From: Thermoanaerobacterium aotearoense
GTDB taxonomy: Bacteria > Bacillota > Thermoanaerobacteria > Thermoanaerobacterales > Thermoanaerobacteraceae
Reading direction: 5' to 3'
Assembly: GCF_009905255.1 (NCBI RefSeq)
Contig: NZ_CP047602.1
Location: forward strand, 682,001-746,000
DNA: 64,000 nucleotides
The notes beneath the pieces are model-generated. The model had not been told where the DNA came from. It saw only the letters and a program-made list of their open reading frames with translations, and made no database searches. Position numbers and translations under genes: made by a program. Of this stretch, positions 3,108 to 31,815 are shown one piece after another. How positions within the stretch are numbered: position 1 is the stretch's first letter; each line of letters opens with the position of its first letter.

Positions 3108-3953
3108 TTAAAAAGCTGGAACTATAGCGCCTTTGTACTTGTCTTCGATAAATTTCTTGACCTCATCAGAATTTAAGGCTTTTGCCAACTTTTGTATCGC
3201 TGGATCGTTTTGATTGTCCTCCCTTACGACTAATACATTAGCATAAGGAGAATTTTTGTCTTCCATAAAAATTGCGTCCTTTAGAGGATTTAAGTTTGCC
3301 TCTAATGCAAAATTAGTGTTTATAATGGCTAAATCCACATCTTGAAGTGTCCTTGGAAGCTGAGGTGCTTCAAGCTCTACAATTTTTAGGTGCTTTGGAT
3401 TATCTACGATGTCTCTGGGAGTCTGTGTAAGGCCATTTGGATCTTTTAGCTTGATTAGTCCCTCTTTTTGCAGTAGCAGCAGTGCTCTTCCTTCGTTTGT
3501 AGCATCATTTGGTACAGCTACTGTTGCGCCATCTTTCAACTCATCCTTTGATTTTATCTTTTTTGAATATGCGCCCATCGGTTCCACGTGCACTTTGACT
3601 AATGGGACTAATTTTACATTATTTTTCTTTTCAAAGTCCTCAAGGTACGGAACGTGCTGGAAGAAATTTGCATCGATTTGCTTGTCGACAAGTGCAGTAT
3701 TTGGCGTCACATAATCTGTAAATTCTTTTATTTCAAGATCTATGCCTTCTTTTGCAAGGATAGGCTTTACTACGTTAAGTATTTCTGCGTGTGGGTTTGG
3801 CGTTGCGCCAACGACTATTTTCGTCGTTTTATTAGAGCTATCTGCATTTGAGTTTGCATTGGATGCGGTGGATACATTGTTGGACTTTGTGCATCCTGAT
3901 AAGATAAATGCAAATGTTAATATAAGCGTGAGAAATAACAATGATTTTTTCAT
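3108..3953 (-). CDS. metQ: Methionine ABC transporter substrate-binding lipoprotein MetQ
   Basis: NlpA/MetQ-family lipoprotein of 281 aa that captures methionine outside the membrane for MetNI. The signal peptide MKKSLLFLTLILTFAF ends in the lipobox LSGC, so the protein is lipid-anchored through that Cys. The mature part begins with a Ser/Asn linker and then KIVVGATPNPHAEIL, diagnostic of the family. An in-frame Met six codons upstream (3971) exists, but AAAGGATGG is placed correctly for 3953. It is the last gene of the SAM-riboswitch-controlled metN-metI-metQ operon. Substrates could include methionine derivatives. Confidence 0.95.
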   Translation of the reverse strand: MKKSLLFLTLILTFAFILSGCTKSNNVSTASNANSNADSSNKTTKIVVGATPNPHAEILNVVKPILAKEGIDLEIKEFTDYVTPNTALVDKQIDANFFQHVPYLEDFEKKNNVKLVPLVKVHVEPMGAYSKKIKSKDELKDGATVAVPNDATNEGRALLLLQKEGLIKLKDPNGLTQTPRDIVDNPKHLKIVELEAPQLPRTLQDVDLAIINTNFALEANLNPLKDAIFMEDKNSPYANVLVVREDNQNDPAIQKLAKALNSDEVKKFIEDKYKGAIVPAF

Positions 3954-3967
3954 TACATACCATCCTT

Positions 3968-4645
3968 TCATCTTTTATCAACTTTTTTTGCGAGATAGTT
4001 TCCTATTCTTTGCACGATTTCTACAAAGATTATTAAGACGATGATTGTGGCAATAAGCACATCTGTCTGAAACCTTTGATACCCATATCTTATAGCGAGA
4101 TCTCCTAAACCACCTCCTCCGATAGCACCTGCCATAGCAGAATACCCTAAGATGTTTATCACTGTAAGGGTTATTCCCAGTACAAGCGATGGCAATGATT
4201 CTGGAATCATGACTTTAAATATTATCTGTGGTATTGAAGCGCCAACTGATATAGATGCTTCAATGACGCCCCAGTCTACTTCTTTTAGGGATGACTCTAT
4301 AACTCTTGCCACAAATGGTGCCGCTGCAATGGACAGTGGCACTATGGCTGCAGTAGGTCCTATAGTTGTGCCAACTATAAGCCTTGCCAATGGGAAGATC
4401 GCGATTATGAGAATTATGAATGGCACAGATCTCATGACATTGATCACAGTACCTAATATCTGATTTAACTTTAGATTTTCCTTTATATGACCTTTATCAG
4501 TTATGACGAGTATTATGCCAAGAGGCATTCCTATGATTACTGAGAAAAGCGTTGAGAAAAATACCATGTATAAAGATTCCCAAAGAGGCTCTTCCATAAG
4601 CTGCCACAAGTTTAACAGATATTGCAATGCATTAGACGATACCAT
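3968..4645 (-). CDS. metI: Methionine ABC transporter permease MetI
   Basis: Membrane permease of 225 aa with about five transmembrane segments. The EAA-type coupling loop is visible as EASISVGASIPQIIFKVMIPE, which contacts the MetN ATPase. It overlaps the end of metN by 14 bp, indicating translational coupling, and is followed after 14 bp by metQ. Length and sequence are ordinary for the family. Confidence 0.95.
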   Translation of the reverse strand: MVSSNALQYLLNLWQLMEEPLWESLYMVFFSTLFSVIIGMPLGIILVITDKGHIKENLKLNQILGTVINVMRSVPFIILIIAIFPLARLIVGTTIGPTAAIVPLSIAAAPFVARVIESSLKEVDWGVIEASISVGASIPQIIFKVMIPESLPSLVLGITLTVINILGYSAMAGAIGGGGLGDLAIRYGYQRFQTDVLIATIIVLIIFVEIVQRIGNYLAKKVDKR

Positions 4646-5654
4646 TTTTAAGCACCTCTATTCTAAGACCATTATTTTCTAAGAATTTTATCGCATCTTT
4701 TATGGAGTTTTCTTCACCACTTATTTTTATTAGGAGATTTCCTATTTGTGAGTTTTGCACCCTTTCGATATTTCCAGAAATGATATTAACTTCAACATCA
4801 AAATTTTTTATCATGTGGGATATGACAGGCTGATTGCTGCTGCTGTCAAAAAACGATAATCTTAAGATTTCCTCGTTTGGATTTTCGTCATCAAGCAATA
4901 TATCTGGCGGAAGTTCAGCTATCATATCTTTTAAAAATCTCTTAGACGTTTCTGTTGAAGGATTTGAAAAGATGTCTATTACATTTCCTTCCTCGATTAT
5001 TCTACCGTCTTCTAAGACTGCCACTTTGTCGCACAGATTTCTTATGACAGACATTTCGTGAGTTATCACCACGATTGTAATTCCGTATTGCTTGTTTATG
5101 TTCTTTAAAAGATTTAAAATGGATTCTGTCGTGGTGGGGTCTAAAGCGGATGTGGCTTCATCAGATAGAATTATGTCTGGGTTATTTGCTAAAGCCCTTG
5201 CAATGCCTACACGCTGTTTTTGACCTCCAGACAACTGCGAAGGATATGCGTATTTTTTGTCTTTTAAATCTACTACATCCAGCAACTCATCAACGCGCTT
5301 TTTTATGACAGAGTCGCTGACTTTCGAGATCTTAAGAGGAAATGCTATGTTTTCATACACTGTAGAGTTCATCAGAAGATTGAAATGCTGAAATATCATG
5401 CCAATCTTCTTTCTCATATTTCTCAGTTCTTTTGGCTTTAGCTTTGTCATTTCTACGCCGTTTATCAATATGCTGCCAGATGTGGGTTTTTCCAGCATGT
5501 TGATGCATCTTATCAATGATGATTTTCCTGCGCCGCTTAAACCCATTATGCCGTAAATTTCACCATCGCTTATGGTTAAGTTGATGTCTTTTAAAGCCAC
5601 TACGTCTTTTCCGCTTGTGCTGTAAACTTTGCTTAAATTTTTTATTTCGATCAA
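4632..5654 (-). CDS. metN: Methionine ABC transporter ATPase MetN
   Basis: ATP-binding subunit of the methionine importer, 340 aa. Walker A is GLSGAGKS (residues 38-45), the signature is LSGGQKQR, and Walker B is DIILSDEATSALD. The last ~80 residues form a NIL domain (VEVNIISGNIERVQNSQIGNLLIKISGEE read in pieces), which in MetN proteins binds methionine and inhibits transport when the cell is replete. It is the first gene after the SAM-I riboswitch, so its synthesis should fall when SAM is abundant. Confidence 0.96.
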   Translation of the reverse strand: MIEIKNLSKVYSTSGKDVVALKDINLTISDGEIYGIMGLSGAGKSSLIRCINMLEKPTSGSILINGVEMTKLKPKELRNMRKKIGMIFQHFNLLMNSTVYENIAFPLKISKVSDSVIKKRVDELLDVVDLKDKKYAYPSQLSGGQKQRVGIARALANNPDIILSDEATSALDPTTTESILNLLKNINKQYGITIVVITHEMSVIRNLCDKVAVLEDGRIIEEGNVIDIFSNPSTETSKRFLKDMIAELPPDILLDDENPNEEILRLSFFDSSSNQPVISHMIKNFDVEVNIISGNIERVQNSQIGNLLIKISGEENSIKDAIKFLENNGLRIEVLKNGIV

Positions 5655-5691
5655 ATCTTCACCTTCTTTTCACAAATGTAATTTAAAAAAG

Positions 5692-5829
5692 CAATAAAAA
5701 AAACCTCCAATGAAAGAGGTTTCGTCCTCTCTCATCTCTCAGCAATCGCTGCAGGAATTGGCACCATTGCACATACGTGCCGGTTGCCGGGTTTCATCGG
5801 GCCAGTCCCTCCACCTCTCTGGATAAGAG
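5692..5829 (-). promoter_or_regulatory. SAM-I (S-box) riboswitch with terminator
   Basis: Read on the minus strand, the leader contains CTTATCCAGAGAGGTGGAG, then GGGACTGGCCCGATGAAAC with CCGGCAACC, then GGTGCCAATTCCTGC and finally GAGAGATGAGAG. This is the canonical order of S-box core motifs: kink-turn, P3 core and P4. The aptamer covers about 5734-5829. The expression platform is the hairpin AAACCTC/GAGGTTT (5701-5722) followed by a T tract on the minus strand. SAM binding is known to favour the terminator in this class, switching off metNIQ. Confidence 0.97.
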
Positions 5830-5857
5830 AATAATTTCGTTTTTAGTTGTTAAAATG

Positions 5858-5886
5858 ATTATATAGGATAGATGTTGAAAAGTCAA
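5858..5886 (-). promoter_or_regulatory. Promoter of the metNIQ operon
   Basis: On the minus strand TTGACT (5886-5881) and TATAAT (5863-5858) are 17 bp apart. Initiation would fall about 20 bp before the SAM-I aptamer. Confidence 0.8.
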
Positions 5887-5955
5887 GCAAAATTTTCATT
5901 CGACAGTATTAAATTTTTGTCACAATGAATCTGACAGTGTATTCACAAGTTTGTG

Positions 5956-5983
5956 TTGATTTAGTTAATAAATTGGTTATAAT
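5956..5983 (+). promoter_or_regulatory. Promoter of the PRD regulator / cellobiose-type PTS operon
   Basis: TTGATT at 5956-5961 and TATAAT at 5978-5983 have 16-bp spacing. The predicted start near 5990 is immediately before a perfect palindrome at 5995. Confidence 0.6.
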
Positions 5984-5994
5984 TAAGATGAAAG

Positions 5995-6008
5995 ATAAGT
6001 TAACTTAT
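5995..6008. promoter_or_regulatory. 14-bp perfect palindrome at the predicted transcription start
   Basis: ATAAGTTAACTTAT is a perfect inverted repeat directly after the promoter of the PTS operon. Its position fits an operator, but the binding protein is unknown. Confidence 0.4.
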
Positions 6009-6042
6009 TAATAATTTGTCGTAGACGAAAGGACAAATATTT

Positions 6043-8127
6043 ATGAAAGAGTTAAGTAGGCGCCAATTAGAAATTTTCAAAAGGGTTCTTTCGAAAGAAG
6101 TTTCCAGTCTAGACGATATCGTCGTTTTATACAAGTTAAGCAAAAGGACTGTTTACAGGGAAATAAATGCCATAAATGAGTATATAAAAGGATACAATTT
6201 AAGGCTTAAAAATGACGATGGTATATTAGTCTTAGAGGGAACTGATAGCGATATTGAAAAATTCAAATTTGACGTAATAGGGTATAGGCCAAGCATTGAT
6301 GCTGACAAAAGGCGAAAATTGATATTGTCTGAGCTTTTGCAGATGAAAGAACCTGTAAAGCTTGAGTACTTTGCTAAAGAGTACAATGTGACTACTGCGA
6401 CAATAAGCTATGACATCAAAGAGATTGATAAGTGGCTAAATAAGCAAAATGTTACAATTGTAACTAAACCTGGCGTTGGCATATACGTAAAAGGCGATGA
6501 AAGCAATATAAGAAGGGCTATAATAAATTTTTTATACGACAATGTAGAGACAAAAGACCTAATTGAGTTTTTAAATAAAGGGTACAATAATATAAACAAG
6601 CTTAGTGAAGACATAAATGATAGATTACTCAGGCTTATAGACTACGATACGGTTCTAAAGATAGAAAAGGCCATACAGAAATTGGAGAAGTCTCTTGATT
6701 ACGAGTTAGCCGAAAGCTCCTACATGGGGCTTACAGTGCATTTGGCATTGGCTTTAAAAAGAATAAAAGAAGGCGAAAAGATAAAAATAGGTACTGAAAG
6801 CCTTTATGAGCTTAAGAAGTCAGATGAGTACAAGTTTGCGGAAATGCTCGCTGGATTTCTGGAAGAAGAATTTGATATTTCTATTCCTGAAGATGAAATC
6901 GGTTATATAACGATTCATTTACAGGGCGCAAGATATAGGGCAAATACCGAAGACGTAAATGACGAGCTGTTAAATGAAATACTGCATGAAATGATCAGTG
7001 TTGCAGAAGATGAATTTGGCACTAATTTTAAAGACGATACGATGCTTTTAAGTGGTTTAAAGACGCACTTAAGGCCTACTATTTTCAGACTTCGCATGGG
7101 CCTTGCTATTAGAAATCCGTTAATAAAAGACATCAAAGAAAGGTACAGCGGTTTATTTGAAAAATGCATATCTATTGCAAATGTGATTAAAGACAAGCTT
7201 AATGTTGATGTGCCTGATGACGAAATTGGCTATATTGCGATGCATTTTGGTGCATCTATGGCAAGAAAAAGTGACAAGACGAAAAGGCACAATATCTTAG
7301 TCGTATGTGCCAGCGGCATAGGAACATCCAGGATGCTTCTGTCAAAGCTTCAGATGTTTCCGCAATTAAACATTGTAGATACGGTATCAAGCTTGAGAGT
7401 CAAAGACTTTAAAGACAGAGATGATATTGACTTGATTGTATCTACAATTCCAATAGATGTAAAAGACAAAGAGACCATAATAGTCAATCCGCTTCTTTTA
7501 GATGAAGATGTGAAAAGGCTGAAAGACGCCTTAAACACAGATTTTATAATGGACTTTTCGGAGAAAAAAGTCATAGGCGACAGATACAAAGAGTTGGAAC
7601 ACATTGCATGGTATGGCAAGAGAATAATTGAGCTGTGCGATTCCCTTAAGCTTAAAGATGTGTATGGCAAGAACTCGAAAGCCATCATAGATTCTTTCTT
7701 AGAAGATTTTGCTGGTAATGATGGAATTAATAATGAGAAGATAAAGCAGATAGAAGATAAGCTTCTGGGTAGAGAAAGCCTCGGAAAGATTATACTTCCA
7801 GGAAAAGGATTTGTAATCTACCACTGTACAGCATCTGATTTGATTGAGCCAATCCTCATCTTTGGAAAAGTGAAAAGCGATGTCAAGATGAAAAATTTGA
7901 TTAACGAGTATGAAACCATAAAAACGGCTTTTCTAATGGTCGCACCTGATGATGACAAGATGTGGATAGAAATACTTGGCGATTTAAGTGTTTCGTTTAT
8001 TGAAAGCAAAGACTTGGTAAAAAATCTCAATGAGATTGATAAAATTGATGAGGCGAAGGAAATTGTCAAGAAAGCCTTGATGGATAAGTATTACGATGAA
8101 ATAAAAAGAAATCTTGTAGGTGATTAA
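6043..8127 (+). CDS. PRD-containing transcriptional activator with PTS EIIB- and EIIA-like domains (LicR/MtlR/CelR class)
   Basis: 694-aa sugar-operon regulator. The order is two N-terminal helix-turn-helix domains (about 1-160), PRD1 (about 195-290, conserved His in TVHLALAL and TIHLQGAR), PRD2 (about 305-405, His in KTHLRP and AMHFGAS), an EIIB-like domain with Cys422 in VVCASGIGTS, and an EIIA-like domain with His594 in IYHCTAS. Proteins of this class are phosphorylated by HPr and by the cognate PTS to sense sugar flux. It is first in the operon and runs directly into the PTS genes, which argues that it controls them. ATG 6043 follows AAAGGA with 9-bp spacing. Confidence 0.92.
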   Translation: MKELSRRQLEIFKRVLSKEVSSLDDIVVLYKLSKRTVYREINAINEYIKGYNLRLKNDDGILVLEGTDSDIEKFKFDVIGYRPSIDADKRRKLILSELLQMKEPVKLEYFAKEYNVTTATISYDIKEIDKWLNKQNVTIVTKPGVGIYVKGDESNIRRAIINFLYDNVETKDLIEFLNKGYNNINKLSEDINDRLLRLIDYDTVLKIEKAIQKLEKSLDYELAESSYMGLTVHLALALKRIKEGEKIKIGTESLYELKKSDEYKFAEMLAGFLEEEFDISIPEDEIGYITIHLQGARYRANTEDVNDELLNEILHEMISVAEDEFGTNFKDDTMLLSGLKTHLRPTIFRLRMGLAIRNPLIKDIKERYSGLFEKCISIANVIKDKLNVDVPDDEIGYIAMHFGASMARKSDKTKRHNILVVCASGIGTSRMLLSKLQMFPQLNIVDTVSSLRVKDFKDRDDIDLIVSTIPIDVKDKETIIVNPLLLDEDVKRLKDALNTDFIMDFSEKKVIGDRYKELEHIAWYGKRIIELCDSLKLKDVYGKNSKAIIDSFLEDFAGNDGINNEKIKQIEDKLLGRESLGKIILPGKGFVIYHCTASDLIEPILIFGKVKSDVKMKNLINEYETIKTAFLMVAPDDDKMWIEILGDLSVSFIESKDLVKNLNEIDKIDEAKEIVKKALMDKYYDEIKRNLVGD

Positions 8128-8128
8128 A

Positions 8129-8371
8129 ATGTTTAGTATTTCGGTAAAACAGCGAAAAATTTTCTATACGATGCTGTCTTTAGTGTGGATTGCAACTGCT
8201 GTGTATTCTATGGTAAATGATACATTTGCACATGGCTTAGAGATTCTCTTGTTTGGTGCATTTTTCATTGCGGGAATTGCTCTTATACAAGCATACATGA
8301 TAAGGATGCTTAAATTATATGACAAAAATTTAAAAAATGAAATAAAAAAGAAAAACAAAAAAAGGAGGTAA
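8129..8371 (+). CDS. Small two-helix membrane protein inside the PTS operon, unknown function
   Basis: An 80-aa protein with two hydrophobic segments (about residues 12-30 and 38-60) and a strongly basic C-terminus ending KKKNKKRR. I do not recognise a family. ATG 8129 is preferred over GTG 8120 because AGGTGA at 8118-8123 precedes it; that ribosome site lies in the end of the regulator gene. It sits between the regulator and the EIIB gene, only 6 bp before the latter, so it is certainly co-transcribed with the PTS. A role in PTS assembly or regulation is only a guess from position. Confidence 0.75.
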   Translation: MFSISVKQRKIFYTMLSLVWIATAVYSMVNDTFAHGLEILLFGAFFIAGIALIQAYMIRMLKLYDKNLKNEIKKKNKKRR

Positions 8372-8377
8372 TTTACT

Positions 8378-8704
8378 ATGGCTATACATGGTGTTATATT
8401 GTGCAGTTGGGGTGCTACATCAAGCGCATTAGCCAAGAAAGTGACTGATGAAGCAAAAAAACAAGGTTTAGATGTGACAGTAGATGCAGGAGGCACAGGC
8501 GAATTCAAGAAGAAAGCTGAAGAATACGATGTTGCTCTTTTAGAGCCACAGGTAAGGCATTTAAAGAAAGAAGTAGAGACAATAGCCGAGAAGTTTGGCA
8601 TTCCTGTTGACATCGTTGATATGCAGGCTTTTGCACTTATGGATGCAAAAAAGATATTGAATCAGATCATCGAGCTTGCTAAGAAAAATGGGAAAGATGC
8701 GTAG
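8378..8704 (+). CDS. celA: PTS lactose/cellobiose-specific EIIB subunit
   Basis: A 108-aa cytoplasmic phosphocarrier that takes phosphate from EIIA and gives it to the sugar during import. The N-terminal loop LCSWGATSS carries the phosphorylatable Cys9; the fold and length match the Lac/Cel IIB class. A strong AAAGGAGG precedes the start. It lies in one operon with EIIC and EIIA. Substrate is most likely cellobiose or another beta-glucoside (inference from class), but lactose-type sugars cannot be excluded. Confidence 0.9.
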   Translation: MAIHGVILCSWGATSSALAKKVTDEAKKQGLDVTVDAGGTGEFKKKAEEYDVALLEPQVRHLKKEVETIAEKFGIPVDIVDMQAFALMDAKKILNQIIELAKKNGKDA

Positions 8705-8715
8705 GAGGTAATAAG

Positions 8716-10035
8716 ATGAACGAAAGACTTACTAACAATTGGTTTATGAAATGGATGGAGTCATCTTTGATGCCTGTACTGGCAAGGATTGCTCAAAATG
8801 TCATACTTCAATCTATAAGAGATGCTTTTTCAAGTTTTGCATTGCCAGTCATATTGACAGGTTCATTGTTTCTGATAATAGCTAATCCACCACTTGCAGA
8901 AGGTGCAAATTGGGGCCCTATTGTGGCATGGGCTAATGCTATTAAGCCTATTGCTGGTCAGTTGATGATTCCTTTCAACTTATCGTTTGGCATTATGGCT
9001 TTGATGGTTGCCTTTGGTACAGCATATAGTTTGGCTACTCGCTGGGATCTTGATGAAGCAATGACAGGTATCATTTCAATGTTAGCATTTTTGGTTACGA
9101 CGTTCCCAGCATCAGACGTTACAAAGGTAAGCTTTGGCGATGTTTTAAATTACCTTGGTGGACAAGGTTTATTTGTAGCTATAATCATAGGTGTATTGAC
9201 AGCAGTTGTTGTTAGATTCTTCAATAAGCAAGGTCTTGTCATTAAAATGCCTGAAGCCGTACCACCTTATGTTGTAAGAAGCTTTATGGCACTTGTGCCG
9301 ATGTTTGTCATGGTTGTATCAGCTTGGATAGTAGAGTGGATCGTATGGGCTAACTTCAAAGTCACATTGCCACAGTTGGTAATAGAGCTATTTAAGCCGC
9401 TTGTTGCAGCATCAAATAGCTACTGGGCAGCTTTAGCTGAAATCATCCTTATGATGCTTTTGTGGTCGCTTGGAATACACGGCATGAATGTCGTATCATC
9501 CATAGCATATCCTTTCTGGATGAGCCAGCTTGCTGCAAATGTAAAAGCATTAAATGCACATCAACCGATGACAGGTATTGTCACAGAGCCATTCTTCCAC
9601 ATGTTCACACACCTTGGAGGTTCAGGTACAACATGGCCTCTTGTCATAATGTTCTTGTTCTCAGCATCAAAACAGCTTAAGACGATAGGTACAGCAGAGC
9701 TTATTCCTGCTATATTCAATATAAATGAACCGCTTATTTTCGGTGCTCCAATAGTTTTGAATCCTATATTGATGATACCATTTATAATTGCACCTGCAGC
9801 GGTTGTGACGATAAACTACATCGCATTCCATTTCCACTTAGTAACAGGACCATTGTACCAGCTTCCATTTACAGTTCCTGTGTTTATAGGTGGTTTCATA
9901 TCAAGTGGTCTTGACTGGAGAGGACCGATTCTACAGCTTGTAAACCTGATTGTAGCAGGTATCATATACTACCCATTCTTCAAAATGTATGAAGCACAGC
10001 TTTTGAAGAATGAAAGAGAGCTTGAGGAAAAATAA
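8716..10035 (+). CDS. celB: PTS lactose/cellobiose-specific EIIC permease
   Basis: Membrane translocation subunit, 439 aa, about ten hydrophobic segments. The class motif region GIHGMNVV and the sugar-site stretch FNINEPLIFGAPIVLNP (conserved Asn-Glu-Pro) are present. It imports and allows phosphorylation of a disaccharide, probably cellobiose. It lies 11 bp after EIIB with GGAGG. Its 3' end is oddly duplicated: the last ten codons plus 11 bp downstream are repeated in tandem (see repeat at 10005). Confidence 0.93.
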   Translation: MNERLTNNWFMKWMESSLMPVLARIAQNVILQSIRDAFSSFALPVILTGSLFLIIANPPLAEGANWGPIVAWANAIKPIAGQLMIPFNLSFGIMALMVAFGTAYSLATRWDLDEAMTGIISMLAFLVTTFPASDVTKVSFGDVLNYLGGQGLFVAIIIGVLTAVVVRFFNKQGLVIKMPEAVPPYVVRSFMALVPMFVMVVSAWIVEWIVWANFKVTLPQLVIELFKPLVAASNSYWAALAEIILMMLLWSLGIHGMNVVSSIAYPFWMSQLAANVKALNAHQPMTGIVTEPFFHMFTHLGGSGTTWPLVIMFLFSASKQLKTIGTAELIPAIFNINEPLIFGAPIVLNPILMIPFIIAPAAVVTINYIAFHFHLVTGPLYQLPFTVPVFIGGFISSGLDWRGPILQLVNLIVAGIIYYPFFKMYEAQLLKNERELEEK

Positions 10036-10088
10036 TTAAAAATATAGAAGAATGAAAGAGAGATTGAGGAAAAATAATTAAAAATATA
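10005..10088. repeat. Tandem 42-bp duplication spanning the end of the EIIC gene
   Basis: Copy 1 is 10005-10046 and copy 2 is 10047-10088, directly adjacent. They differ at one position only (C in copy 1, A in copy 2, 17 bases in). Copy 1 holds the last codons and stop of the EIIC gene; copy 2 is untranslated and now forms the spacer before the EIIA gene. Confidence 0.95.
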
Positions 10089-10105
10089 TAAGGAGAAACC
10101 CTTTG

Positions 10106-10423
10106 ATGGAATTAGAGCAAATTATATACAATTTGGTCTTGCACGGCGGAAACGCCAGAGGCGAGGCGTATGAAGCATTAGATGCAGCAGAAAAAGGGGA
10201 TTTTGAATCTGCCGAGAAGCATCTAGAAAAGGCTGATGAAGAATTTTACGCAGGTCATGATTATCAAAACGCATTAGTGCAAGGTGAACAAAGCGAAGCA
10301 CCTAACTTCCTTGTTATACACGCTCAAGATCAGCTTATGACGGCTCTTGCAGAAAAGAATCTCATAAGAAGGCTTATAGAACTTTACAAGAGGTTAGATG
10401 CCCTTGAAAAGAAAGTAAAATAG
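10106..10423 (+). CDS. celC: PTS lactose/cellobiose-specific EIIA subunit
   Basis: A 105-aa cytoplasmic helical phosphocarrier accepting phosphate from HPr on a His. The active site IHAQDQLMTA contains His72 and the metal-binding Asp75 of this class. ATG 10106 is chosen over TTG 10103 because AAGGAGA at 10090-10096 is better spaced. Last gene of the operon, followed by a strong terminator. Confidence 0.93.
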   Translation: MELEQIIYNLVLHGGNARGEAYEALDAAEKGDFESAEKHLEKADEEFYAGHDYQNALVQGEQSEAPNFLVIHAQDQLMTALAEKNLIRRLIELYKRLDALEKKVK

Positions 10424-28970: not shown

Positions 28971-29044
28971 GCGGGTGTAGCTCAATGGTAGAGTTCTAGC
29001 CTTCCAAGCTAGCTACGTGGGTTCGATTCCCATCACCCGCTCCA
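28971..29044 (+). tRNA. tRNA-Gly (anticodon TCC)
   Basis: Acceptor GCGGGTG/CATCCGC-type pairing (GCGGGTG with CACCCGC), anticodon loop CTTCCAA, TTCGATTCC T-arm and encoded CCA. First of eight tRNA genes. Confidence 0.96.
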
Positions 29045-29048
29045 ATAT

Positions 29049-29125
29049 GCGCCTGTAGCTCAGTTGGATAGAGCAACGGACTTCTAATCCGTGTGTCGGG
29101 AGTTCGAATCTCTTCAGGCGCACCA
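29049..29125 (+). tRNA. tRNA-Arg (anticodon TCT)
   Basis: Acceptor GCGCCTG/CAGGCGC, anticodon loop CTTCTAA, TTCGAATC T-loop, encoded CCA. Confidence 0.96.
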
Positions 29126-29158
29126 TTTTTTGGAGAATATGATTTATGTTTATAATAT

Positions 29159-29236
29159 GGTGGGTATAGTTCAGTTGGCTAGAGCGCCAGATTGTGGCTC
29201 TGGAGGTCGTGGGTTCGAGCCCCACTACCCACCCCA
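29159..29236 (+). tRNA. tRNA-His (anticodon GTG)
   Basis: Acceptor GTGGGTA/TACCCAC with an extra 5' G (29159) opposite the discriminator C, the identity mark of tRNA-His. Anticodon loop TTGTGGC; encoded CCA. Confidence 0.96.
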
Positions 29237-29240
29237 TTGA

Positions 29241-29316
29241 TGGGATGTAGCCAAGTGGTAAGGCACCAGACTTTGACTCTGGCAGTTCGTAGGTTCGAAT
29301 CCTGCCATCCCAGCCA
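29241..29316 (+). tRNA. tRNA-Gln (anticodon TTG)
   Basis: Acceptor TGGGATG/CATCCCA with the weak first U-A pair typical of tRNA-Gln, anticodon loop CTTTGAC, encoded CCA. In this organism it is presumably charged through GatCAB. Confidence 0.96.
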
Positions 29317-29320
29317 GCAT

Positions 29321-29393
29321 GACCCATTAGCTCAGTCGGCAGAGCACCTGCCTTTTAAGCAGGGTGTCCCGCGTTCGAATCGCGGATGGGTCA
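29321..29393 (+). tRNA. tRNA-Lys (anticodon TTT)
   Basis: Acceptor GACCCAT/ATGGGTC, anticodon loop CTTTTAA. The discriminator A is followed by CTT, so CCA is not encoded. Confidence 0.95.
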
Positions 29394-29432
29394 CTTAAAA
29401 AGATATTGAAAGAGAAACAATCTGGCGTTAAT

Positions 29433-29519
29433 GCGGGAGTGGCGGAATTGGCAGACGCGCTAGATTCAGGTTCTAGTGCCAGTCATGGCATATGGGTTCA
29501 AGTCCCTTCTCCCGCACCA
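29433..29519 (+). tRNA. tRNA-Leu (anticodon CAG)
   Basis: Class II tRNA with a long variable arm (TGCCAGTCATGGCA), acceptor GCGGGAG/CTCCCGC, anticodon loop TTCAGGT, encoded CCA. Confidence 0.95.
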
Positions 29520-29527
29520 TATATAAT

Positions 29528-29603
29528 GCGGACATAGCTCAGTTGGTAGAGCATCACCTTGCCAAGGTGAGGGTCGCGAGTTCGAGTCTCGTTGTCCGCT
29601 CCA
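29528..29603 (+). tRNA. tRNA-Gly (anticodon GCC)
   Basis: Acceptor GCGGACA/TGTCCGC, anticodon loop TTGCCAA, encoded CCA. Confidence 0.96.
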
Positions 29604-29611
29604 TACAACAT

Positions 29612-29684
<73 letters not shown>

Positions 29685-29701
29685 CTAGTATTTAAGCAAT
29701 C

Positions 29702-29735
29702 AAAGGGTATCGAGATTTTATCGATACCCTTTTTG
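29702..29735 (+). terminator. Terminator of the tRNA operon
   Basis: 12-bp perfect stem AAAGGGTATCGA/TCGATACCCTTT, loop GATTTTA, followed by TTT. Confidence 0.92.
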
Positions 29736-29766
29736 TATGCGAAATTAAAACAACATTTTTTCAAGC

Positions 29767-29924
29767 TTATCTGTTGCTGGTTTTTGCATATCTGGCAGTA
29801 CATGTATTCCTTAAGTCATATAATCTTATGTTGGGCAAATTTTCTTTTTTGAGAAGTTCTTTAGAATATCGTGATACATTTTTTCTTCTGATGGACTAAC
29901 GTTCTGTACGGCAAATATATCATC
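29767..29924 (-). pseudogene. Decayed C-terminal fragment of a tyrosine recombinase (integrase)
   Basis: On the minus strand, one frame (29895 down to the stop at 29767) reads KELLKKENLPNIRLYDLRNT, the linker and box II of phage-type tyrosine recombinases, where the norm is HDLRHT; both His are changed (Tyr and Asn). Upstream, in another frame, AVQNVSPSEEKMYHDILKNF gives the preceding conserved segment, so a frameshift joins them. There is no start, and the catalytic Tyr region is missing. It is a dead relic of an element that probably entered at the adjacent tRNA-Lys. The remainder up to 30009 shows no gene. Confidence 0.7.
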
Positions 29925-30009
29925 TTAATAGAAAGATTCCATTAAGTGGAAATGTCAAATATAAATAAAGTAAAGGCTAAAAAATTATCTAATAAGGTGT
30001 GCTTTAGAT

Positions 30010-31815
30010 TTAGGCATTTTTTATTTTGAACTGGGTGTTATACAAATCTTTGTAGATGCCTCCTTTTTTTAAAAGTTCTTCGTGGCTTCCTTTTTCAACT
30101 ATTTCACCATTTACTACAACAAATATTACGTCTGCAGCAATTATGGTGGATAGACGATGGGCGATGACTAAGCTGGTTCTGGATTTTAAAAGAGGTTCTA
30201 ATGCCTTTTGTATATAAAACTCAGAATTGGAGTCGAGTGCTGATGTAGCTTCATCAAATATTATAATCTTGGGATCTTTTAGTAATGTCCTGGCAATGGA
30301 TATGCGTTGTTTTTCACCGCCAGATAATTTTATACCTCTATCGCCTACTATTGTATCGTAGCCGTTAGGAAGAGATTCGATAAAATCGTGAATATACGCT
30401 GCTTTGCACGCACTTATTATTTCCTCATCTGTGGCATTTTGGCGTGCAAAAAGCAGATTTTCTTTTATAGTTGTATTAAAAAGGTATGTATCTTGTGTAA
30501 CCATTCCTATATGGCTTCTTAGAGAACTAAGTGAGATATCTCTTACATCTATTCCATCCAAAAAGATTCCTCCCATTTTCACATCATAAAGTCTGGGAAG
30601 AAGATAAGTAATGGTAGTTTTTCCAGCTCCGCTTGGCCCAACTAAAGCTGCCATTTGACCAGGCTTTATTTCGAAGTTGATATCTTTAAGAGTATCGTGG
30701 AAACCATCATAAGAAAAATAGACATGTTTGAATTTGATGTTACCTTTTACACTGTTAACAACGATTGAATTTTCTTTTTCATAAATCTCGCTTTTTAAAT
30801 CTAAATATTGAAAAATGCGTTCGAACAATGCTAATGATCTAATAATATCTACGTGTATATTTGAAAATGTACTTACTGGACCGTATAGTCTTGATACCAG
30901 CGATACAAACATGACTATTCCGCCTATTGTAATAGTATTATATCTTATAAGTATTATCCCTCCAACCAAATATATAAGCATTGGCCCTATTGCAATAAAA
31001 GTTTGTATTGTCATAAAAAACCATCTGCCAATGATCGTCGCCCTTATTTGAAGTTGTGTCACTTCATTATTTACTTTTTCAAATTCTCTATATTTTTCTT
31101 TTTCTTTTGTAAAGAGCTTAATAAGAAACATACCGCTTATATTTAAAGTTTCAGTTATTATGTTTGTCAATTCTGCAAGTTTCGATTGGGTTTTAAGTGC
31201 TATTTCCCAGCGCTTTTTGCCAACCTTTCTTGTAGGTATTACAAACAAAGGCAATGTCAGAAGGCTGACGATGGCAAGCATCCAATTTGTGTAGAACAAA
31301 GTTGCTGCAGTTGTTAGAAAGACAAATATACCAGATAAAAGTTGAATAAACGTGTTTGAAAATACACTTTCTATTCCTCCAATATCATTATTGATTCTGG
31401 AGGTTATTTCACCTGTTTTTGCATTAGAAAAAAAGCTTATAGACATGTGCTCTAAATGATTGTACATGATGGATCTTAGGTCTCTGATTATGCTTTTTGA
31501 GACAATGCTGTTTAAATATGATTGTCTAACAGCAATAATATTAAGCAGTAATGTTGTTGCAAATGACAAAAAAATATATGTAACTAAAAGCTTCAAATTT
31601 TTCTGTGGCAGCGCAATATCTATTACGTTTTTGGTTAGTATAGATGGAACTACGCCTAATATGGATGTGGAAATAACAGTCATAAACAATACTATCATTA
31701 GTTTCCAATACGGCATAAAATACTTTAGTATGCGCAAAATGAATGATTTTGTGATGTGAGGTTTTTCATCAGTTTCTCTGTAAAATCTTTTACCACGATA
31801 TCCCATTGACTGCAT
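30010..31815 (-). CDS. ABC exporter, fused membrane and ATPase domains
   Basis: 601-aa half-transporter working as a homo- or heterodimer at the membrane. Six transmembrane segments fill residues ~25-320; the ATPase domain follows with Walker A GPSGAGKT, signature LSGGEKQR, Walker B IIIFDEATSALD and the H-loop IAHRLST. The N-terminus (YRGKRFYRETDEKPHITK) is basic and soluble. It resembles the multidrug/lipid exporters (MsbA/BmrA-like); substrate unknown. It is monocistronic; no terminator is obvious after its end. The ribosome site is weak (GAAAGAATG), and the second Met (31806) is an alternative start. Confidence 0.9.
   Translation of the reverse strand: MQSMGYRGKRFYRETDEKPHITKSFILRILKYFMPYWKLMIVLFMTVISTSILGVVPSILTKNVIDIALPQKNLKLLVTYIFLSFATTLLLNIIAVRQSYLNSIVSKSIIRDLRSIMYNHLEHMSISFFSNAKTGEITSRINNDIGGIESVFSNTFIQLLSGIFVFLTTAATLFYTNWMLAIVSLLTLPLFVIPTRKVGKKRWEIALKTQSKLAELTNIITETLNISGMFLIKLFTKEKEKYREFEKVNNEVTQLQIRATIIGRWFFMTIQTFIAIGPMLIYLVGGIILIRYNTITIGGIVMFVSLVSRLYGPVSTFSNIHVDIIRSLALFERIFQYLDLKSEIYEKENSIVVNSVKGNIKFKHVYFSYDGFHDTLKDINFEIKPGQMAALVGPSGAGKTTITYLLPRLYDVKMGGIFLDGIDVRDISLSSLRSHIGMVTQDTYLFNTTIKENLLFARQNATDEEIISACKAAYIHDFIESLPNGYDTIVGDRGIKLSGGEKQRISIARTLLKDPKIIIFDEATSALDSNSEFYIQKALEPLLKSRTSLVIAHRLSTIIAADVIFVVVNGEIVEKGSHEELLKKGGIYKDLYNTQFKIKNA

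Follow-up and report, generated by a model that had tools for sequence, protein, structure and literature searches.

tRNA genes are well-known sites of genomic islands, and crossover near the anticodon is a subsite named in the Islander account, in which the search requires an integrase frame (PMC4383910). In ICEKp1, insertion at the 3' end of a tRNA-Asn gene is reported to displace the native tRNA terminator, with a co-directional integrase that uses the promoter of the tRNA (PMC13023037). Below, we analyze 64,000 nucleotides of the Thermoanaerobacterium aotearoense genome (the window; contig NZ_CP047602.1, positions 682,001 to 746,000), in which a tRNA-Lys(CTT) gene is followed by what is, by its sequence, the decayed 3' end (29741-29917) of a phage-type tyrosine integrase gene. 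As in ICEKp1, insertion would have occurred at the tRNA 3' end and displaced the native terminator; unlike the ICEKp1 integrase (PMC13023037), the window integrase converges on the tRNA, with a hairpin supplied between the two. Like the islands of the Islander account (PMC4383910), the elements in relatives have a target tRNA, a displaced tRNA fragment and an integrase, whereas the window has neither the fragment nor an integrase frame. An Islander-type search, which demands such a frame, would therefore reject the window site (PMC4383910). Intact PF00589 integrases at tRNA-Thr genes in three relatives (G001, G003 and G012) provide a further comparison: their tRNAs adjoin the same hairpin and arm site, and protein identity to the relic is 74-89% (G001 copy, two tblastn pieces). 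Integrase relics beside tRNA genes are commonplace, and this one is an ordinary example. The features discussed are the following:

28971..29685, plus strand: cluster of eight tRNA genes (ARAGORN), in the same order in several relatives
29612-29685, plus strand: tRNA-Lys(CTT), last of the eight and putative target site (ARAGORN)
29702..29732, plus strand: hairpin terminator (GGGTATCGA...TCGATACCC, then a T run) from RNA folding, probably element-borne
29735..29745, no strand: single GTATGCGAAAT, candidate integrase arm-type site
29745..29917, minus strand: integrase relic (minus-strand frames, tblastn, DNA alignment to a relative's integrase gene)
first frame, minus strand: relic piece 1, the stretch before box II (AVQN...HDIL)
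29892-29800, minus strand: relic piece 2 (NVSRY...YDLRNTC), second frame
29804-29748, minus strand: relic piece 3 (HVLPDMQKPATDKLEKMLF), back in the first frame
29747-29745, minus strand: relic stop codon
29918..30004, no strand: stretch without assigned origin, in which neither an attR nor an arm site was recognised
30010..31815, minus strand: 601-aa ABC-transporter-like frame (name read from the translation), host flank common to G003 and G002

Integrase relic beside tRNA-Lys(CTT)

The minus strand of 29741-29917 aligns at the DNA level with a relative's integrase gene, with gaps of 1 nt and 98 nt, and the relic as delimited by its stop codon (29745-29917) lies 60 bp past the tRNA-Lys end at 29685. 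The sequence-only reading had proposed a tyrosine-recombinase relic beside this tRNA at 29767-29924, and the peptides it quoted are present in the minus-strand frames. The relic was correctly recognised but extends beyond that start, to 29741, and its C-terminus is a third piece (HVLPDMQK...MLF-stop) that had been overlooked. With the intact G001 integrase (398 aa) as tblastn query against the window, 29892-29800 corresponds to residues 318-348 (74% identity, 53.1 bits) and 29804-29748 to residues 380-398 (89% identity, 38.5 bits). These two adjacent pieces have a combined E of 2e-15, a significant translated match of the kind that the proposed relic called for. The next-best match in the window reaches only 25 bits, and the top score over 50 Markov-shuffled windows is 30.4 bits.

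Searched alone, the relic peptides matched no integrase in either Pfam or PHROGs, and nothing in phages with an E better than 4. Because peptides this short have no usable database match, proof of integrase identity requires the relatives. The G001 integrase matches Phage_integrase (PF00589) in Pfam with an E of 7.4e-32, and it is via this intact family member that the relic is homologous to PF00589. A DNA search covered 60 relatives, one genome per species, and the own genome; the query included the tRNA and matched all 61 genomes through it, and only matches outside the tRNA were counted. Three relatives have between them four integrase loci that match the block 29794-29917 with 87-89% identity, and G016 matches it with 75%. 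In several genomes this block and 29612-29804 are neighbors, and between the two the relatives hold sequence absent from the window.

The window copy has lost 1 nt and, separately, 98 nt that the intact gene has bounded by CATGT repeats. Together these losses total 99 nt, which returns the last piece to the first frame. Integrase residues 349-379 are missing through the deletion; from motif roles, we take them to include the second box-II His and the catalytic (nucleophilic) Tyr, so the window copy lacks a complete set of catalytic box-II residues. Substitutions include RHT to RNT. The sequence-only reading had described a linker and box II with both His replaced. AVQN...HDIL is the run-up to box II rather than box II, RHT to RNT is the sole His substitution, and the second box-II His was deleted, not replaced. 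The Tyr of LYDLR, taken for a replaced residue, is common to the intact copies and thus normal for the family. At ~60 codons, frame-broken and without the catalytic Tyr, compared with full-length, open copies in relatives, the window copy is, judging from its frames, a pseudogene of the PF00589 family and not a working member.

Empty, occupied and decayed sites in relatives

Close relatives show the same tRNA site empty, occupied and decayed. In G003, matched to Thermoanaerobacterium saccharolyticum NTOU1, the tRNA-plus-terminator block and the block of the 601-aa frame are 20 bp apart, which makes the tRNA-Lys site nearly empty; integrase copies in this genome lie beside tRNA-Thr(TGT) and, for the second, tRNA-Thr(CGT). 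In G004, an element of ~17 kb from the relic's integrase family lies between tRNA-Lys and a 44-bp repeat of the tRNA 3' part, and its integrase copy adjoining tRNA-Lys(CTT) is frame-broken. A 5.8-kb insertion occupies G002 between tRNA-Lys and a 48-bp tRNA repeat, with the relic's coding part unmatched there, and G001 has a rump of the integrase tail at the same tRNA-Lys. Related elements are found at tRNA-Thr in G001 (18.4 kb, bounded by a 65-bp repeat) and G012 (45 kb, bounded by a 47-bp repeat), where open integrase frames lie beside tRNA-Thr(TGT) and tRNA-Thr(CGT), respectively. The tRNA and its displaced 3' fragment form direct repeats in G001, G002, G004 and G012, and the region around the anticodon (tRNA positions 30 to 38) is where these repeats begin. 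A candidate for a second attR in G004 (L058) was dropped, as the intervening genes look chromosomal from their translations.

The comparison of this tRNA end across relatives thus revealed occupied sites in G004 (same integrase family) and G002 alongside the nearly empty site in G003, in agreement with the earlier suggestion of a former mobile-element insertion site. These alignments support the tRNA-Lys(CTT) 3' end as that site. In the window, an integrase next to the tRNA 3' end is present as a relic only. The window showed no attR, no second arm and no second tRNA-Lys 3' fragment, the direct repeat that would bound an element, and the stretch 29918-30004 is without any match. A few letters in common had raised the possibility of a degenerate attR in 29928-30010, which was rejected when shuffles equalled or beat it in 191 to 496 of 500 trials across eight comparisons.

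The elements in relatives carry cargo. Those of G001 (L034, L053), G004 (L033) and G002 (L044) have transporter-like frames and an HTH-TPR regulator in common, and those of G001 and G004 also encode a radical SAM/SPASM protein and a PqqD-like protein of 91 aa, a pair that resembles a small peptide-modification cluster. A Pfam check of ten element proteins, nine of them encoded by G001 and one by G004, identified, among others, a radical SAM/SPASM protein, an MFS transporter, an HTH-TPR regulator, a CHC2 zinc-finger protein, a second recombinase and transposase families; the radical SAM and PqqD runs used the G001 copies, and the PqqD match is under the cut-off.

We consider the following account of insertion and decay, including a probable terminator legacy, very probable as a whole. 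An element with a tyrosine integrase would once have inserted in the 3' half of tRNA-Lys(CTT), with the element's own copy restoring the tRNA 3' end. This would have put an attachment arm beside the tRNA, consisting of a hairpin terminator ~20 nt downstream, tandem GTATGCGAAAT arm sites and a convergent integrase gene. Nearly the entire element may later have been lost, probably via deletion and not clean excision, because the integrase tail remains and no attR was found. The tail would then have decayed through the 1-nt loss, the 98-nt deletion, which has CATGT repeats at its ends and took out the catalytic Tyr, and the H-to-N substitution. What is left would be a dead integrase tail and a probably element-derived terminator, which may now serve the tRNA cluster.

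Probable origin of the hairpin terminator and candidate arm sites

The hairpin at 29702-29732 folds as RNA with -19.4 kcal/mol (z -5.9); a simple terminator scan of 29600-30100 returned 0 sites and did not flag it. The sequence-only reading had placed a terminator between the tRNA and the relic. A hairpin is indeed there, although it probably belongs to the attachment region of the element and is not an independent host feature. The same hairpin is found beside the intact integrases of relatives, where it and GTATGCGAAAT are located between the integrase stop and the tRNA, with one GTATGCGAAAT copy in the window and two in the G001, G003 and G004 elements. In G001 and G004, GTATGCGAAAT recurs close to the other end of the element, and this placement at both element ends fits putative arm-type sites. 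In a sister group with 66% identity (read in G014), the integrase lies at the far end, followed by a pair resembling the GTATGCGAAAT pair, GATTGCGAGTT and GATTGCGAACT, and then a tRNA-Thr fragment.

A search of 20 family genomes with the hairpin pattern found it in 14 of them, at 27 places in total, and a reversed control pattern found 0. At 23 of the 27, a tRNA-Lys(CTT) or tRNA-Thr sequence ends 19-21 nt before the hairpin; 18 of these tRNAs are full or nearly so and 5 are fragments. No tRNA matches at the other 4. Part of the tRNA library was taken from the same loci, which affects tRNA identity and not position. At least one arm site stands beside 18 of the 27. The tRNA-Lys(CTT) flanks read among the 20 genomes (19, with G008 left out) have an intact hairpin in 7 cases, a damaged one in G016 and different flanks in 11.

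Several factors bear on whether the integrase relic is genuine while the hairpin is a native tRNA terminator that elements captured in attP, so that nothing was donated. Firstly, the tRNA-gene hairpins of G009, G010, G013 and G019 have neither arm sites nor an integrase match, which speaks for native terminators and against donation. The second factor is the flank displaced beyond attR, which has a diverged hairpin in G001 but none in G012 and a different module in G004. Finally, a native terminator sits poorly with the 11 of 19 tRNA-Lys(CTT) flanks that have no intact or damaged hairpin, with the arm sites adjoining 18 of the 27 hairpins, and with one copy at a non-tRNA insertion beside sigK. 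We consider a native origin less likely than not. The displaced flanks and the hairpin distribution favor a hairpin that arrived with the element and stayed, and transfer from element to host is the likely direction. The hairpin and its neighboring repeat look like a terminator and an integrase arm site that an element brought in and the host has retained.

Two other explanations concern the tail rather than the hairpin. The tail could be a fragment acquired through homologous exchange with another strain or through duplication of an attachment end, with no full insertion at this locus, as the window retains one element end only; we judge this improbable, since G004 and G002 have insertions at this very tRNA gene and G001 has a tail rump there, and insertion in the lineage or a neighbor is therefore needed anyway. 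Chance resemblance in non-coding DNA, to which the isolated peptides without a Pfam or PHROGs integrase match might point, has practically no standing against 87-89% DNA identity to integrase genes across ~120 bp and a protein E of 2e-15, with all 50 shuffled windows far below.

Terminator modules and related loci

Besides the GGTATCGA type, a second type of module consists of AAGTGCTT repeats followed by a GGGTATCC hairpin, and occurs at tRNA-Thr or tRNA-Lys genes or in the displaced G004 flank. A search of 20 genomes matched it in 10, where three of the matches are short and weak, and in G001 it adjoins an intact integrase that is 58% identical. A third type with TTTGCTAACG repeats is not claimed, as its one full match is the query's own locus and the other five are short and weak. 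Whether the Lys and Thr tRNA terminators of this bacterial family are portable element parts of at least two modules, swapped with each insertion and kept after element death, such that the 3' ends of tRNA units would record serial occupancy, is evenly balanced in our estimation. Among the literature titles searched, we noticed none on an element-borne tRNA terminator like this one, a weak negative result. Should the terminator be element-borne, mobile elements would rewrite the ends of tRNA operons, and dead insertions rejected by integrase-based island finders could be mapped, with the hairpin and arm-site signature marking insertion sites even where no integrase remains.

Three further loci of the own genome carry such modules or hairpins. 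A AAGTGCTT/GGGTATCC module lies beside tRNA-Thr(TGT) at G000:C1:38588-38701 (L119); the stretch fetched there has no match to the relic's integrase, and the module is possibly a second dead insertion in this genome. A third hairpin copy, at G000:C1:2625800 (L107 1501), stands beside what reads as a tRNA-Arg-like 3' fragment, and ARAGORN predicts no tRNA gene at L107. Outside the window, at G000:C1:1299407-1306210 (L174 ~3408-10211), a 25-bp repeat flanks a 6.8-kb element that has this hairpin with its arm sites, as well as an intact sister integrase of 375 aa from its ATG. On one side of it is a penicillin-binding-protein gene and on the other the sigK ATG (TIGR02846, E 3e-112), two genes that are contiguous in seven of the nine genus genomes searched, own genome included, with G008 unmatched. 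Positioned upstream of sigK and not inside it, this element resembles a tyrosine-integrase counterpart of skin elements.
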